IMG/VR virus record: IMGVR_UViG_3300044858_001981
Location: 1-21,441 of that record
Length of the DNA stretch: 21,441 bases
Strand: one strand, 5' to 3'
From: a virus
Numbering within the stretch: position 1 is the first letter of the stretch; each line of letters opens with the position of its first letter. The notes below the pieces were generated by a model. The model saw nothing but the letters and a program-made list of their open reading frames with translations, was not told the DNA's origin and made no database searches. Positions 942-20,256 of the stretch are shown here, one piece after another. The position numbers were made by a program, and so were the translations under genes.

Positions 942-2667
942 CGCCGAGCCGGGGCGCTGGATCACTGCCCGTGCTGAATATCAGCGTGGTGTCATGGATG
1001 CCTGCTCCGATCCTTCGGTGCGTGAGGTGGTGTTCATGTGCGCGGCGCAATTGGGCAAAAGCGAGTGCCTGAACAATACAATCGGGTATTATATGGACTA
1101 TGATCCTTGCCCGATCCTGCTGATGCAGCCGACGCTCGATCTTGCGATGGCATACTCGAAAGACCGCATTACCGCTGGTCTGCTCAAATCCACTCCTGCG
1201 CTGCGGGAGAAGGTCAAAGATAGTAAGGTGAAAGACAGTGGTAATACGCATTTGCACAAGGTATTTCCTGGTGGCGCTTTGTCTCTTGTTGGGGCTAACA
1301 GTCCATCTTCCCTTGCTTCTCGTCCGATCCGCGTCGTCCTGTGTGACGAGGTGGACAGATACCCTCTTAGTGCGGGTGAGGAAGGTGATCCTGTATCTCT
1401 CGCAAAGCGCCGCGCAGCAACTTTCTGGAACAGGAAAATTATCCTAGTTTCCACCCCAACCAATCGGGGTGCCAGCCGGATTGAGTCGGCGTATGAGGAG
1501 TCGGACAAGCGGAAATATCTAGTTCCGTGCCATGACTGCGGACATGAGCAGGAATTGGCTTGGGCCAACGTGATCTGGCACGACAATAACCCCAAGACCG
1601 CTAGTTATGTTTGCCCTGAGTGTGGCTCAACATGGGGCGATGGGGAAAGGCGCAGGGCTATCTCTAGGGGAAGGTGGCAGGCCACCCGCCCCTTCAACGG
1701 CGTGGCGGGATTCCACCTGAGTGCGCTCTACTCGCCCTGGGTCGTTCTGGCCGATGCCGTGGAGGAGTTCCTCGCGGCGAAGAAAGATCCGATGCGGCTG
1801 AAGACCTTCGTCAACACGTTTCTGGGCGAAACGTGGGAAGATCAGGGCGAGGGTGTCGATGATGTGGAACTTGCTCAACGCCGCGAGGATTATGAAGGTG
1901 TGCCTGATGAGGTCGCGCTGCTGACGGCTGGCGTGGACGTTCAGGATGACCGGCTGGAGGTCGAGATTGTCGGATGGGGCGCTGGCGAGGAAAGCTGGTG
2001 CGTCGATTATCGGGTTCTGCATGGCGATCCATCGTCACCACAATTGTGGAAGCAGTTGGACGAGGTGCTACTTCAGACCTTCGACCATCCGATTGGTGGC
2101 CCGATGATCATCCGCTCAACTTGCGTGGACTCTGGCGGTCACCACACGCGGGCGGTCTACAATTATGCGAAGACGCGGGCTGGACACCGAGTGTTCGCGA
2201 TCAAGGGTATCGGCGGTGAGGGCAAGCCGATTGTCGGTCGTCCCAGCAAGAACAATATCGGCAAGATCCCGCTCTATCCCGTGGGGGTCGATACGGCGAA
2301 AGAACTGTTCTATGCGCGTTTGCGCCAGCCCGAGCCTGGGCCGGGGTATTGCCACTTCCATACGCGGCTTGACGAGGAACATTTCCGCCAGTTGACCGCT
2401 GAGAAGCAAGTGATCCGCTACCATAAGGGCTATCCCAAGCGGGGCTGGATCAAGACACGGACGAGAAACGAGGCCCTTGACGTTAGGGTTTATGCGATGG
2501 CGGCGTTGGCGATCCTGAACGTCAACATGGACAGCATTGCGAAAAAGTATTTTTCTGCTATAGAACGGGATGAAGATTTATCCGTCTCCAAGGAGGAGGC
2601 ACATCCGCTGGTCAATGCTCGAGCAAAGTCGCGGCGCAAGGGTGGGTTCGTGAATAATTGGCGGTGA
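787..2667 (+). CDS. terL: Terminase large subunit, lambda gpA family
   Basis: This is the ATP-driven DNA-packaging motor and headful or cos nuclease. The 626-residue length matches the gpA family. Visible motifs, numbered from GTG 787: a Walker A-like CAAQLGKSE at 85-93; Walker B VVLCDEVDRYP at 183-193; VSTPT at 221-225 (coupling motif); a zinc-binding pair CHDC 248-251 and CPEC 276-279; FVNTFLGETWED at 341-352; and a nuclease domain with acidic residues in AGVDVQDDRLE (D384), CVDSGGH (D448) and NEALDVRVYA (D565). I kept GTG 787 because AAGGAAG at 774-780 lies 6 nt upstream, and because lambda gpA also carries a short N-terminal helix before its AVEWAD motif (here SVAEWAD). This makes a long overlap, about 155 bases, with the small subunit. 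ATG 862 is the alternative but has no visible ribosome site. Confidence 0.95.
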   Translation: MNSQIISPQLIQSTRAHLLANLSIAMKQLTPPPRLSVAEWADQKRRLDSQSSAEPGRWITARAEYQRGVMDACSDPSVREVVFMCAAQLGKSECLNNTIGYYMDYDPCPILLMQPTLDLAMAYSKDRITAGLLKSTPALREKVKDSKVKDSGNTHLHKVFPGGALSLVGANSPSSLASRPIRVVLCDEVDRYPLSAGEEGDPVSLAKRRAATFWNRKIILVSTPTNRGASRIESAYEESDKRKYLVPCHDCGHEQELAWANVIWHDNNPKTASYVCPECGSTWGDGERRRAISRGRWQATRPFNGVAGFHLSALYSPWVVLADAVEEFLAAKKDPMRLKTFVNTFLGETWEDQGEGVDDVELAQRREDYEGVPDEVALLTAGVDVQDDRLEVEIVGWGAGEESWCVDYRVLHGDPSSPQLWKQLDEVLLQTFDHPIGGPMIIRSTCVDSGGHHTRAVYNYAKTRAGHRVFAIKGIGGEGKPIVGRPSKNNIGKIPLYPVGVDTAKELFYARLRQPEPGPGYCHFHTRLDEEHFRQLTAEKQVIRYHKGYPKRGWIKTRTRNEALDVRVYAMAALAILNVNMDSIAKKYFSAIERDEDLSVSKEEAHPLVNARAKSRRKGGFVNNWR

Positions 2668-2670
2668 TGG

Positions 2671-3261
2671 ATGGCTAACCTTTTTGATCCTGCGAATGCG
2701 CCCGAGGGCGAACCCGAGACCATTGTGGTCGGCGACTTCATCCAGTGGAAGCGCAGCGATCTGGTCGAAGACTATCCGGTAGCAACTCACTCTGCCACCC
2801 TTGTCGCCCGCATTACGGGTGGTGGCGCTAACGAAATCCAGATCAACGCGACTGAGAGCGATCCCAGTTATTATCTTTTCACGGCGACAAGTGCGACTTC
2901 ATCCAGCTTCAGCCCTGGGCATTACCACTGGCAACTTGAGGTAACCCAGACTTCTAGCGGCAACCGGATTGTCGTCGCAACAGGCATGTTCGAGATTTTG
3001 CCTGATCTCGATGTTAACAACAGCGACCGGCGCACCCATGCAGAGATCATGCTGGCGAAGATCCAGACGATCCTTGAGGGCCGCGCTGACAGCGATGTGT
3101 CGTCCTACTCAATTCAGGGCCGCTCGCTGGCAAAGATGTCGATCTCCGATCTGCTGTCGTGGCGAGATTACTATCGCCGCGAAGTTTTGAAGGAAAAGCG
3201 CGATTCTGACATCCAGAACGGGCGCAAAACCACTTCAACTGTGAAAGTCCGGTTTCTATGA
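2671..3261 (+). CDS. gpW-like head-tail connector with N-terminal beta-sandwich domain
   Basis: The C-terminal third (about residues 121-172) looks like the small lambda gpW connector, with the pattern ILEGRADSDVSSYSIQGRSL then SISDLLSWRDYYRREV, a helix-hairpin-helix layout that fits between portal and tail. Lambda gpW has only 68 residues. This protein has 196, because about 100 residues of predicted beta strands come first (FIQWKRSDLVEDYPV ... GHYHWQLEV), suggesting an Ig-like or immunoglobulin-type fold. This two-part architecture is common in prophages of proteobacteria. The gene starts 4 bases after the terminase stop and overlaps the portal start by 4 bases (ATGA), so it is translationally coupled. 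Position between terminase and portal is the same as lambda W. The exact role (connector versus stabiliser) is inferred. Confidence 0.7.
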   Translation: MANLFDPANAPEGEPETIVVGDFIQWKRSDLVEDYPVATHSATLVARITGGGANEIQINATESDPSYYLFTATSATSSSFSPGHYHWQLEVTQTSSGNRIVVATGMFEILPDLDVNNSDRRTHAEIMLAKIQTILEGRADSDVSSYSIQGRSLAKMSISDLLSWRDYYRREVLKEKRDSDIQNGRKTTSTVKVRFL

Positions 3262-4742
3262 GCATCTGGCGAGAAATCCTCGGCCTGCCGGTGAAGGTTC
3301 CGGGCAAGGGCTTCCAGCGGCGTAGCTATCAGGCGGCGAACACTGGCCGTCTGTTCGCGGACTTCACCTCGTCGAACCGCAGCGCCGACAGCGAGCTTCG
3401 CACCGACCTTGTGCTGATGCGCAATCGGTCGCGTGAGCTTGCGCGCAATGATGTCTATGTGAAGCGTTACCTGAACCTGATGAAGACCAATGTCGTCGGG
3501 GACAAGGGCATGACGCTTCAGGTCAAGGCTCGCAACGACAACGGGTCGATGGATGTTATCGGCAACAGCATCATCGAGAACGCTTGGGCGCAGTTCAGCC
3601 TGCGCGGCAACTGCACGGCGGACGGTAAGCGTTCGTGGGTGGATCTCCAGAAGTATGTGATCGAGGCCACCGCCCGTGACGGCGAGGCATTCATCCAGAT
3701 CGTGCGCAACCGGCGCTTTCCCCACGGGATCGCGTTCCATCCGGTCGAAGCTGACCTGATCGACGAGAAGAAGAACGAGATCGCCAAGAACGGCAATCGC
3801 ATCCGCATGGGTGTTGAAGTCGATGAGTTCGACCGGCCTGTGGCTTATTGGGTGAAGACCAATCACCCCGGTGATTACGATATGTCGAGCATCCGCAGCG
3901 CGGTGACGAAGCGGATTCCGGCTGAGAACATGATCCATGTGTTCGAGTCGATCCGCGCTGGTCAGACCCGTGGTGAGCCGTGGATGGCACCGGCTATTGC
4001 GCAGTTGAAGATGCTTAACGCGCACCGTGAGGCTGAACTGGTCGCCAGCCGCATGGCCGCGTCGAAGATGGGTTTCTTCACCAGTGAAACCGGCGACGAG
4101 GTGCCTGCGGACGATTACGACGGCAGGGTTCCGATCATCGATGCGGAGCCGGGTGCGTTCCACCAGCTTCCGGCTGGGGTGGACTTCAAGCCGTTCGACA
4201 TGAACCATCCGGCGACTGCCTTTGCCGATTTCGAGAAGGGCATTCTGCGTGGCTTGGCTTCGGGTCTGGGCGTGTCTTATGCCTCGCTGTCGAACGATCT
4301 GGAAGGCACTTCCTATAGCTCGATCCGACAAGGCGCACTGGAAGAACGTGATGCCTACAAGGTCGTGCAGACGTTCCTGATGGAGCATTTCGTACTGCCT
4401 GCCTATGCAGCGTGGCTGCAACACGCGATGGAGTTCGGGGTTGTCCCGATCCCTGCGACCCGCTTCGACAAGTTCTTCACCGCGAGCGTTTTCCGCCCCC
4501 GTGGCTGGCAGTGGGTCGATCCGCAGCGTGAGATCAATGCCGCTGTCACTGCGATGCACAACGGCATCATGTCGATGCAGGATGTGTCCAACCAGTATGG
4601 CCGCGACATTGAGGAAACCTTCTCGCAGATTCAGCGCGATCAGGAACTGGCCGATAGCCTTGGCCTGAAGCTGGCATTCCAGCCGTTCGGCGGAAACGAA
4701 GCCGAGAAGGGCGCGATCATCGAGGATACCTCAGATGAGTGA
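3258..4742 (+). CDS. Portal protein, lambda gpB family
   Basis: The portal is the dodecameric ring at one capsid vertex through which DNA enters and leaves and to which terminase docks. The 494-residue length fits the family. Typical segments are LMRNRSRELARNDVYVKRYL at about 53-72 followed by NVVGDKG, EVDEFDRPVAYWVK at about 187-200, VFESIRAGQTRGEPWMAPA at about 228-246, and SNDLEGTSYSSIRQGALEER at about 345-364. The last contains the conserved Tyr-Ser-Ser-x-Arg patch of gpB proteins. It starts in an ATGA overlap with the gpW-like gene and has only a weak ribosome site, so coupling is likely. It ends 8 bases inside the capsid fusion gene. A long minus-strand ORF across 3171-4559 is a shadow produced by G/C-rich wobble positions. 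Confidence 0.95.
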   Translation: MSIWREILGLPVKVPGKGFQRRSYQAANTGRLFADFTSSNRSADSELRTDLVLMRNRSRELARNDVYVKRYLNLMKTNVVGDKGMTLQVKARNDNGSMDVIGNSIIENAWAQFSLRGNCTADGKRSWVDLQKYVIEATARDGEAFIQIVRNRRFPHGIAFHPVEADLIDEKKNEIAKNGNRIRMGVEVDEFDRPVAYWVKTNHPGDYDMSSIRSAVTKRIPAENMIHVFESIRAGQTRGEPWMAPAIAQLKMLNAHREAELVASRMAASKMGFFTSETGDEVPADDYDGRVPIIDAEPGAFHQLPAGVDFKPFDMNHPATAFADFEKGILRGLASGLGVSYASLSNDLEGTSYSSIRQGALEERDAYKVVQTFLMEHFVLPAYAAWLQHAMEFGVVPIPATRFDKFFTASVFRPRGWQWVDPQREINAAVTAMHNGIMSMQDVSNQYGRDIEETFSQIQRDQELADSLGLKLAFQPFGGNEAEKGAIIEDTSDE

Positions 4743-17878: not shown

Positions 17879-18136
17879 ATGGATTATCAAGTTCTCTTTA
17901 ACATCGTGTTCGGCATCGCTGGCGGGCTTGGCGGCTGGGTTCTGAACAACATGACGAAGGCAATTGAGCGTCTCGACAGGGACGTTCGTGATATGCCCAA
18001 GACCTATGTCGCCAAGGAAGATTGGCGAGCAGATATGCAGGCGCTCAAGGCCGACATGGACAAGGGCTTCGACAAGCTCGACAAGACGCTCGGCACGATC
18101 TTCAAGAAGCTGGACGGCAAAGAGGACAAAAGCTGA
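17879..18136 (+). CDS. Membrane-anchored coiled-coil protein at the start of the lysis cassette
   Basis: This 85-residue protein has one N-terminal membrane segment (about 5-23, VLFNIVFGIAGGLGGWVL) followed by a charged helix with coiled-coil periodicity (AIERLDRDVRDMPKTYVAK ... DKGFDKLDKTLGTIFKKLDG). Proteins of this build often precede the endolysin in phages of alphaproteobacteria. It could be a holin partner, antiholin or superinfection factor. The ribosome site is weak. Its stop overlaps the muramidase start (TGATG at 18134-18138). A holin role is possible but the 55-residue protein downstream is also a candidate. Confidence 0.7.
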   Translation: MDYQVLFNIVFGIAGGLGGWVLNNMTKAIERLDRDVRDMPKTYVAKEDWRADMQALKADMDKGFDKLDKTLGTIFKKLDGKEDKS

Positions 18137-18798
18137 TGCGGCACCTGTTCAGCCGTTTGCTTGAGGCAGGGCGGAACATGGACATCCGCAACAAGCCCGC
18201 GAAGCCCGATCCGATGATCGAGGTAGACAAGGCGCTGGCACAAGAGCCGCCGCGACCTGAATTGCCGCCTGTGACGCATCCTGATCGTTTCGCCGCTTGC
18301 CTCAAGATTGTTCTGAAGCACGAGGGCGGCTATGTGAACCATCGGAAAGACCCCGGCGGTCGCACGAACCTCGGCGTGACGCAGCGCGTTTGGGAGGCAT
18401 GGACTGGAAAGTCTGCGACCGAGCAGGAAATGCGCTCGCTGACCGTTGACATGGTGGCACCGCTTTATCGTCAAAAATACTGGGACAAGGTGCGCGGGCG
18501 GGATCTTGCGCCGGGTCTTGATCTGCATGTGTTCGACTTCGGCGTGAACGCGGGGCCTGCGCGGGCTGTCCGCTATCTGCAAATGATGGTTGGCGCTAAT
18601 CCTGACGGCAAGATTGGGCCTGCCACTATGCGGGCGCTGTCCAACTATATCGACCTTTACGGCACGGCCAAGGCTATCACCCGCTATGGCGAATTGCGCG
18701 AGCAATACTACCGCCAGCTTAAGACGTTCGGGACGTTCGGCAAGGGATGGCTGCGCCGCAATCGTGAAGTGACCGCAGCCGCGTTGGTGATGAAATGA
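18136..18798 (+). CDS. Endolysin, GH108-type N-acetylmuramidase with C-terminal binding domain
   Basis: The enzyme cleaves the glycan strands of peptidoglycan to release progeny. In the 220-residue product the motif KHEGGYVNHRKDPGGRTNLG (about 61-80) identifies the GH108 family, with E63 the expected catalytic acid. APLYRQKYWDKVRGRDL (about 108-124) and DFGVNAGPARAVRYLQ (about 134-149) are also typical. The C-terminal part (about 155-215, NPDGKIGPATMRAL) fits the PG_binding_3 domain. There is no signal peptide or SAR segment, so a holin must let it out. I chose ATG 18136, with AGAGGA at 18121-18126, 9 nt away. The frame is open further upstream only as a shadow of the previous gene. ATG 18178 is an alternative. 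Confidence 0.9.
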   Translation: MRHLFSRLLEAGRNMDIRNKPAKPDPMIEVDKALAQEPPRPELPPVTHPDRFAACLKIVLKHEGGYVNHRKDPGGRTNLGVTQRVWEAWTGKSATEQEMRSLTVDMVAPLYRQKYWDKVRGRDLAPGLDLHVFDFGVNAGPARAVRYLQMMVGANPDGKIGPATMRALSNYIDLYGTAKAITRYGELREQYYRQLKTFGTFGKGWLRRNREVTAAALVMK

Positions 18799-18962
18799 CG
18801 GCCATCCGCTACCTCAAGGCTCGCCTGAAAGAGCGCAGCTCGTGGGTCGCCATCGTCGGCGCGATTACGGTGGCCTCTGCCCTTAGCTGGCCCTGGGACG
18901 TTGCTGCTGCGGCTGCTGGCGTGATTGGGGTGCTGGTGCCAGAGGGCCACGACGATGTTTAG
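18795..18962 (+). CDS. Small membrane protein, holin candidate (55 aa)
   Basis: A 55-residue protein starting MTAIRYLKARLKERSSWVAI. A basic N-terminal amphipathic segment precedes two hydrophobic stretches: about 17-30 (WVAIVGAITVASAL) and about 35-49 (DVAAAAAGVIGVLV). The tail is acidic (PEGHDDV). This layout, directly after the muramidase and before Rz, is typical of small holin-like proteins that permeabilise the membrane for the endolysin. It starts in an ATGA overlap with the muramidase stop (18795-18798) and its end overlaps the Rz start by 8 bases. Function is inferred from size, topology and context. Confidence 0.75.
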   Translation: MTAIRYLKARLKERSSWVAIVGAITVASALSWPWDVAAAAAGVIGVLVPEGHDDV

Positions 18963-19467
18963 CGCGGGCTTGCTGTTTGCCCGCATTTCAGGGCTGCTGA
19001 AGCGCGTTCCGTGGTTTGTGTGGGCCGCACTGGCCCTGATCGTCGCCGTGCTATTCTACGGCCATCACAGGGAGGCTCAGGGCTATGCCAAGGCCGAAGC
19101 CTACTGGAAGGCCGAGATCGACGCGATGGAAGCCCAGCGTCAAGCGGCGCTTGACAGTGAGGAAGCCGCCCTGCGCCAGCTAGCAAAGGACACTGACCGC
19201 AATGTTGCCCAAGAACGTGAAGCTAATCGTCCTGCTGTCGAGTCTTTCATTGCTCGCGGCGGGCTGCGCCAAGCCTGCCCCCGTGATCGTGGCACCGCAG
19301 GTGGAAGCACCGGAAGTGGCCCGTCCGTGCGTGAAGCGCCCGTCGTGGATGCAGCCGAGCAAGTGCAAGTCGTCGGAGTGACCGCTGAGGACGTTCGCAT
19401 CTGCACCGATAACACCCTAAAAGCCGAGGCGATGCGTGATTTCATCCTCGGTTTGGAGGCGAAATAG
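18955..19467 (+). CDS. Rz: Rz-like inner-membrane spanin
   Basis: A 170-residue protein with a short cytoplasmic start, one membrane helix (about 19-36, PWFVWAALALIVAVLFYG) and a long periplasmic coiled coil (about 39-95) rich in Ala, Glu and Gln. That is the build of inner-membrane spanins, which join outer-membrane Rz1 to fuse the two membranes in the last lysis step. ATG 18955 is preferred over upstream GTG 18925 because AGAGGG (18941-18946) sits 8 nt away. The region after residue 85 also encodes a second gene in another frame (Rz1). The weakly structured middle, including TAGGSTGSGPS, is probably shaped by that overlap. Confidence 0.8.
   Translation: MFSAGLLFARISGLLKRVPWFVWAALALIVAVLFYGHHREAQGYAKAEAYWKAEIDAMEAQRQAALDSEEAALRQLAKDTDRNVAQEREANRPAVESFIARGGLRQACPRDRGTAGGSTGSGPSVREAPVVDAAEQVQVVGVTAEDVRICTDNTLKAEAMRDFILGLEAK
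19202..19381 (+). CDS. Rz1: Rz1-like outer-membrane lipoprotein spanin, nested in Rz in the +1 frame
   Basis: A 59-residue ORF fully inside Rz, in the +1 frame. It starts MLPKNVKLIVLLSSLSLLAA and carries a lipobox LAAGC with acylated Cys22. The predicted mature form is 38 residues and Pro-rich, beginning CAKPAPVIVAPQVEAPEVAR, then CVKRPSWMQPSK. The CVK-x-P ... W-x-Q-P pattern is strikingly like lambda Rz1 (CVKPPPPPAW, IMQPPP). AAAGGA at 19185-19190 is 11 nt before the ATG. Nested Rz/Rz1 pairs are well known, and a hydrophobic signal followed by a perfect lipobox in this position is very unlikely by chance. It anchors in the outer membrane and pairs with Rz. Confidence 0.88.
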   Translation: MLPKNVKLIVLLSSLSLLAAGCAKPAPVIVAPQVEAPEVARPCVKRPSWMQPSKCKSSE

Positions 19468-19533
19468 CAGCACCTTTCGCCAAGTATTTGTTTGTGCTAT
19501 GCAGCCCCAACTGAAACGGCGAGGGGCCGCGCA

Positions 19534-20256
19534 GTGCTAGATGCAAAAATACTATTTCTCGACATCGAGACTAGTCTCATGTTGGTCTACACCTTCGGGA
19601 TTAGAGACCAGCACATCACCATCAACCAGATCGCGGATGACCGAAGCGGACGGCTGATCCATTGCGTCGGCATGAAGTGGCTCCGCCAACCCGTGCAGGT
19701 TCTTTCCGAATGGGAGCACGGCTATGAGGGCATGATGCGGGGTGTCTATGATGCCCTGCTAGAAGCCGATGCAGTCGTGACCTATAACGGGGCCAGTTTT
19801 GACATCCCCAAGATCAACGGGCAGTTCCTGCTGCTGGGGATGGAGCCGCCCCCGCCCCCGACGCAGATTGACTTGTTCAAGACCGCCCGCAAGATGGGTT
19901 ACCCGTCTGGCAAGCTGGATTACCTGTCCCAGAAGCTGGGTATCGGCCAGAAGGTCAAGCACGACGGGTTCAAGCTATGGGTAGACGTATTCAACGGATG
20001 CCCGAAGGCTCAAGCCAAGATGGCGCAGTATTGCGCGGGTGATGTGAAGCTGACCGAGAAGGTCTATCTGAAACTGCGGCCCCACATTGCCAATCATCCC
20101 CATTTGGCTGAGACAAAGAAGGATCAATGCGGGGCCTGCGGCTCTAGTCGTTTGCAGTCTCGCGGGCTGTATCGCACAAGGGCGATCATCTATCAGCGGT
20201 ATCACTGCCAAGGCTGTGGCGCGTGGTCTAAAAGATATCTTGAGAAGGCGACTTAG
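19534..20256 (+). CDS. DEDDy-type 3'-5' exonuclease/RNase H-like protein with C-terminal zinc ribbon
   Basis: A 240-residue protein resembling the RNase_H_2 (YprB-like) DnaQ superfamily. Motif I is ILFLDIETS (D10, E12), motif II is TYNGASFDIPKING (D90), and motif III is YCAGDVKLTEK with Y166 and D170, so the DEDDy set of metal ligands is complete. The end holds a zinc ribbon with CGACGSS (C199, C202) and CQGCGAW (C225, C228), likely for nucleic acid binding. GTG 19534 has GAGGGG at 19521-19526, 7 nt upstream; TTG 19492 has no site. It could trim or degrade DNA, or process recombination ends. It follows the lysis genes but is not itself a lysis gene, and its stop overlaps that of the opposing DUF3310 gene. 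Confidence 0.8.
   Translation: MLDAKILFLDIETSLMLVYTFGIRDQHITINQIADDRSGRLIHCVGMKWLRQPVQVLSEWEHGYEGMMRGVYDALLEADAVVTYNGASFDIPKINGQFLLLGMEPPPPPTQIDLFKTARKMGYPSGKLDYLSQKLGIGQKVKHDGFKLWVDVFNGCPKAQAKMAQYCAGDVKLTEKVYLKLRPHIANHPHLAETKKDQCGACGSSRLQSRGLYRTRAIIYQRYHCQGCGAWSKRYLEKAT

Follow-up and report, generated by a model that had tools for sequence, protein, structure and literature searches.

A predicted Rz1-type o-spanin gene embedded in the Rz gene of a tailed-phage lysis cassette

The lysis cassette and its embedded reading frame

The window, i.e. the whole stretch of DNA analyzed, is the 21,441-base IMG/VR virus record IMGVR_UViG_3300044858_001981. It carries a tailed-phage structural module, and the lysis module is found downstream of the tail genes. 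The large terminase of the window is nearest to those of Roseobacter phages (~61% identity), an indication that the host is Gram-negative and of alphaproteobacterial type. All lysis genes described below are on the plus strand.

The endolysin gene at positions 18136–18798 encodes a 220 amino acid protein that displays a GH108 domain (PF05838, E-value = 4.7e-29) and a peptidoglycan-binding domain (PF09374, E-value = 2.1e-6) and matches the endolysin family phrog_315. Directly upstream, positions 17879–18136 encode an 85 aa protein with one N-terminal hydrophobic segment and similarity to phrog_462 (E-value = 8e-10). This family carries the sole annotation "lipoprotein", yet the 85 aa sequence has no cysteine. 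The protein is conserved in three other viral contigs (L001, L085 and L086) and is possibly a further membrane protein of the lysis module.

A putative holin of 55 aa is encoded at positions 18795–18962. It has two hydrophobic segments, shows a weak match to the holin family phrog_297 (E-value = 0.0056) and is 80%–87% identical to sequences in four viral contigs. Its start overlaps the endolysin stop codon (ATGA at position 18795) and its end overlaps the start ATG of the next gene, Rz, and the cassette thus looks translationally coupled.

Rz, at positions 18955–19467, encodes a 170 aa protein with similarities to the Rz-like spanin family phrog_1403 (E-value = 3.8e-6) and to phrog_312 (E-value = 5.7e-4). 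A single N-terminal transmembrane helix spans approximately residues 18–36 (the best 19-residue stretch begins at residue 18, with a mean hydropathy of 2.13) and is followed by a charged periplasmic part with cysteines at positions 108 and 150. Rz therefore has the form of an i-spanin, i.e. a type II membrane protein that has one N-terminal transmembrane helix and whose periplasmic domain is largely helical, the helicity and coiled coils being predicted from composition. The start listed for this open reading frame, TTG at position 18925, is a mechanical extension, and the ATG at position 18955 is preferred.

Directly after the cassette, positions 19492–20256 encode a DNA polymerase exonuclease-type protein (phrog_403, E-value = 2.1e-67) that starts at TTG 19492 or later. 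A 58-base stretch after Rz (positions 19487–19544, TTTGTTTGTGCTATGCAGCCCCAACTGAAACGGCGAGGGGCCGCGCAGTGCTAGATGC) is identical in L085, where the exonuclease gene that follows displays only 77% nucleotide identity. Within the viral collection, an exact 36-base core of the stretch is found in a single contig. The stretch may represent a promoter, a regulatory leader, a recombination joint, or the conserved beginning of an exonuclease open reading frame that starts from TTG 19492.

The Rz1 open reading frame, at positions 19202–19381, lies wholly within Rz, in the +1 frame and at an offset of 247 nt. It starts with ATG and encodes a 59 aa product, MLPKNVKLIVLLSSLSLLAAGCAKPAPVIVAPQVEAPEVARPCVKRPSWMQPSKCKSSE. 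Position, frame and length are exactly those given in the first-pass annotation, which had described the open reading frame as a hidden lipoprotein gene. The N-terminus is basic and is followed by a hydrophobic segment and by the sequence A-A-G-Cys22. A signal sequence is predicted at aa positions 1–21 and Cys22 is the predicted lipoylated residue, which leaves a mature chain of 38 aa containing seven prolines and two additional cysteines, Cys43 and Cys55. Given its shortness, the mature chain is expected to lack a defined structure. The sequence AAGGA, a possible ribosome-binding site, is at positions 19186–19190 and begins 16 nt 5′ of the Rz1 ATG.

The lipobox reported in the first-pass annotation holds with a qualification. 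The signal sequence and Cys22 agree with the permissive PROSITE-type pattern, but with alanine at position −3 the sequence fails the strict consensus, [LVI][ASTVI][GAS]C (Kongari et al. 2018, PMC6139136). Deviations from this consensus in o-spanins are on record in the same survey, and one of them (AWAC) has been proven functional; the alanine is thus not disqualifying. Rz1 also completes the lysis cassette as had been proposed, together with the adjoining GH108 endolysin, the holin assigned by its weak match, and Rz.

Chance expectation and conservation in two relatives

The +1 open reading frame could be a chance product of a GC-rich gene, with a lipoprotein appearance that is likewise fortuitous. 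The expectation was determined by recoding Rz with synonymous codons drawn from the codon usage of the window. In 75% of the recodings the +1 frame stays open for 59 codons or more, as a fortuitous frame would require, and the open frame by itself is thus uninformative. The lipoprotein features are a different matter. A comparable lipoprotein open reading frame appears in only 0.3% of 20,000 recodings when any alternative frame and any start are allowed and in 0.065% when the +1 frame and ATG are required; this range (0.07%–0.3%) is somewhat favorable to the gene, as the PROSITE-type filter was chosen post hoc after the strict type missed Rz1 because of the alanine at −3. The conservation tests described below are independent of the choice of filter. 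The same filter, applied to all six frames of the whole 21.4-kb window, finds no lipoprotein-type open reading frame other than Rz1.

A second alternative is that Rz1 is expressed as a lipoprotein that has no part in a spanin, e.g. a surface or exclusion lipoprotein that is located within Rz. Consistent with this, Rz1 of the window has no significant match among the spanin families (the best is phrog_456, E-value = 0.063), and its binding to Rz is a prediction. However, the open reading frame is embedded in an Rz-like i-spanin gene inside a lysis cassette, the 59 aa length, the 38 aa proline-containing mature part and the extra cysteines resemble lambda Rz1, and no other o-spanin or u-spanin candidate in the window passes the filter. 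A lipoprotein with a role other than that of a spanin is considered very unlikely.

The two informative relatives are the contigs L001 and L085, both from uncultivated phages. L001 was obtained by a scan of viral contigs and shows 73% identity in Rz and 79% in Rz1; L085 was found by a holin scan of viral contigs and shows 66% and 59%, respectively. Both keep the embedded Rz1 in the +1 frame, with its start, the AAGGA sequence, the lipobox cysteine, a proline-containing mature part and two further cysteines. AAGGA is at the same position in L001, and in L085, as in lambda, it precedes the ATG by 13 nt. The lipobox of both relatives is the canonical LAGC. The invariant core of Rz1 comprises AGC, AKPAPVIV..P..EAPE..RPCV.RPSWM and the distal Cys55, and the cysteines at positions 108 and 150 of Rz and 43 and 55 of Rz1 (window numbering) are conserved in all three sequences. 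L085 differs from the window by a 3-nt length difference adjoining the lipobox cysteine codon, which leaves both frames intact. The Rz1 sequence of L085 matches the spanin family phrog_456 (E-value = 0.001).

Loss of the lipobox cysteine or of the +1 frame in relatives that keep Rz, named in the first-pass annotation as evidence that would count against the gene, was looked for in L001 and L085, and both cysteine and frame are intact. In both relatives Rz1 terminates slightly short of the end of the stretch compared, and the stop there is the natural end of the frame. In addition, when the Rz proteins are kept and their codons re-drawn, the observed +1-frame identity exceeds that of all 20,000 simulations in both relatives, which argues against a fortuitous frame.

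Two other differences are found in the L085 lysis region. Its endolysin gene (positions 2366–3004, versus 18136–18798 in the window) begins with a similar N-terminal leader (RHLFSR.LE.GRN.DIR..), after which it encodes a lysozyme-like domain other than that of the window; the catalytic domain appears to have been swapped, whereas the holin, Rz and Rz1 of L085 are homologues of those in the window. An additional 50 aa open reading frame with a single transmembrane segment, a possible second holin or antiholin, is present between holin and Rz at positions 3158–3310 of L085 and is absent from the window.

Tblastn searches of 50,697 phage records with Rz and Rz1 gave no match, with Rz1 even at E-values up to 10, and a search of genome contigs with Rz gave no relative. 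Sphingomonas phage Eidolon provides the only DNA match (66 bases in the endolysin) and has no gene like the window Rz directly after its lysozyme gene; a lipoprotein-like open reading frame is present further downstream of the lysozyme. The sequence family of this spanin is thus absent from the phage isolate collection searched, while its kind is already known.

Substitution pattern in the overlap

Outside the overlap, the third codon position of Rz is the most variable, with changes in 0.33 of codons in L001 and 0.47 in L085. Inside the overlap, the most variable position is Rz position 1, which is the wobble position of Rz1 (0.31 in L001 and 0.36 in L085), and position 3 drops to 0.17 and 0.27 and becomes the least variable. 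The shift in position between overlap and outside is significant in both relatives (chi-square p = 0.008 for L001 and 0.003 for L085). This wobble signature tracks the Rz1 frame, and together with the rare lipoprotein features and the excess of product identity it makes a fortuitous open frame highly improbable.

A comparison of synonymous variation in Rz across the overlap had been suggested in the first-pass annotation. In L001 and L085 the synonymous change is approximately twofold lower inside the overlap than outside, although Fisher tests on synonymous codons are individually weak (p = 0.03–0.08). A halving of synonymous variation is also what a conserved DNA or RNA element within Rz, one that encodes no protein, would produce. 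However, nucleotide change as a whole is no lower in the overlap than outside, and variation at positions 1 and 2 of Rz is higher there (0.31 and 0.20 in L001, versus 0.16 and 0.10 outside), which indicates a shifted coding frame. Moreover, the sole length difference in the shared overlap after the lipobox cysteine is one of 3 nt, and both frames are kept. A nucleotide-level element is therefore regarded as extremely unlikely, and a second coding frame explains the overlap.

The pN/pS ratio of Rz is 1.21 (L001) and 0.95 (L085) in the overlap, versus 0.27 and 0.26 outside. In the Rz1 frame the overlap ratios are about 0.5 (L001) and 0.7 (L085). The comparison demonstrates that, of the two frames in the overlap, that of Rz1 is under the stronger constraint. 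The neighboring genes, the protein features, the conservation in L001 and L085 and the substitution pattern, flipped to the Rz1 frame, all point the same way, and positions 19202–19381 almost certainly represent a genuine embedded o-spanin gene of the Rz1 type.

Comparison with lambda and other spanins

An o-spanin gene located inside an i-spanin gene, one base out of step, is an arrangement long known from phage lambda. In lambda (NC_001416) Rz1, at positions 46186–46368, is fully inside Rz, at positions 45966–46427, and is in the +1 frame, as is the case here. Rz1 starts approximately half-way along Rz in both, at an offset of 220 of 462 nt in lambda and 247 of 513 nt in the window. Lambda Rz1 is 60 aa long with a mature part of 41 aa, compared with 59 and 38 aa in the window. 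Rz of each phage has two periplasmic cysteines, at positions 99 and 152 in lambda and 108 and 150 in the window. The gene order differs, however, and is endolysin-holin-Rz in the window and holin-endolysin-Rz in lambda.

The first-pass annotation had likened the mature part of Rz1 to lambda Rz1 through the pattern CVK-x-P-x-W-x-Q-P. This motif is present, as CVKRPSWMQP, and resembles lambda Rz1 CVKPPPPPAWIMQP, with an extra cysteine before a VK-Pro-Trp motif in both; homology is nevertheless undetectable by profile comparison of the two Rz1 proteins (hhalign probability 0.8 on a 0–100 scale). A search against the lambda Rz1 family phrog_3198 likewise gave no significant match for the window Rz1 (E-value = 0.94), whereas lambda Rz1 itself gave 1.5e-29. 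The resemblance is one of anatomy and a short motif, without demonstrable sequence homology. The window Rz1 has no poly-proline stretch and contains seven scattered prolines compared with ten in lambda Rz1. With Cys55 it has one periplasmic cysteine more.

Lambda Rz and Rz1 form homotypic disulfides, at C99 and C152 of Rz and C29 of Rz1. Export, lipidation, complex formation, disulfides and membrane fusion are predicted for the window Rz and Rz1 by analogy with lambda. The N-terminal helix would anchor Rz in the inner membrane, and Rz1 would be attached to the outer membrane, from which its short proline-containing periplasmic part would bind the C-terminal region of Rz. The conserved cysteines of both proteins would serve homotypic disulfides. 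On opening of the inner membrane by the holin, the GH108 endolysin would be released and the cell wall degraded; the disulfide-stabilized Rz-Rz1 complex, spanning the periplasm, would then draw inner and outer membrane close to each other and disrupt the latter, probably through membrane fusion, as the lambda model has it.

Tentatively, the window, L001 and L085 could form a spanin sequence family that sequenced isolate phages lack, in which C43 and C55 are conserved besides the lipidated cysteine, perhaps in a disulfide scheme other than that of lambda, and which has no poly-proline fusion motif.

More distant spanins are found in two other IMG/VR contigs, L026 and L032. As in the window, these are embedded and in the +1 frame, the o-spanin has a similar CA(S/A)KP start and C..xPSW...C end, and a similar D-x-x-x-C region is located near the Rz C-terminus. 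They differ in that Rz1 is longer (69–72 aa) and has more prolines, and Rz has diverged. An alignment of Rz1 matches the L026 Rz1 with an hhalign profile probability of 94.8 (E-value = 4.8e-8). Both o-spanins are likely to be distant homologues, that of L026 by this match and that of L032 by resemblance.

Contigs L086 and L087 have a holin of the same family as that of the window (80% identity), and L086 also has a similar upstream gene of 86 aa. However, a different i-/o-spanin pair of overlapped architecture is found in the same place (positions 3307–3814, versus 18955–19467 in the window). The presence of a different pair beside a conserved holin indicates that spanin pairs are exchanged as modules.

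In a survey of 677 genomes, two-component spanins were embedded in 182 cases, overlapped in 228 and separated in 118, and 196 annotated systems lacked an identified o-spanin (Kongari et al. 2018, PMC6139136). That such genes escape gene callers, as the first-pass annotation noted, is therefore already well known, and the embedded Rz1 is less remarkable than was held there. Embedded o-spanins are a common textbook class, and the finding is real but ordinary. This divergent member of the class would go unnamed by family searches alone, and its practical value is in annotation. In lambda, the part of Rz that overlaps mature Rz1 is mutationally silent (PMC5295617). The pN/pS pattern of the window agrees with this and is the counterpart, in natural variation, of the silent region of lambda Rz.
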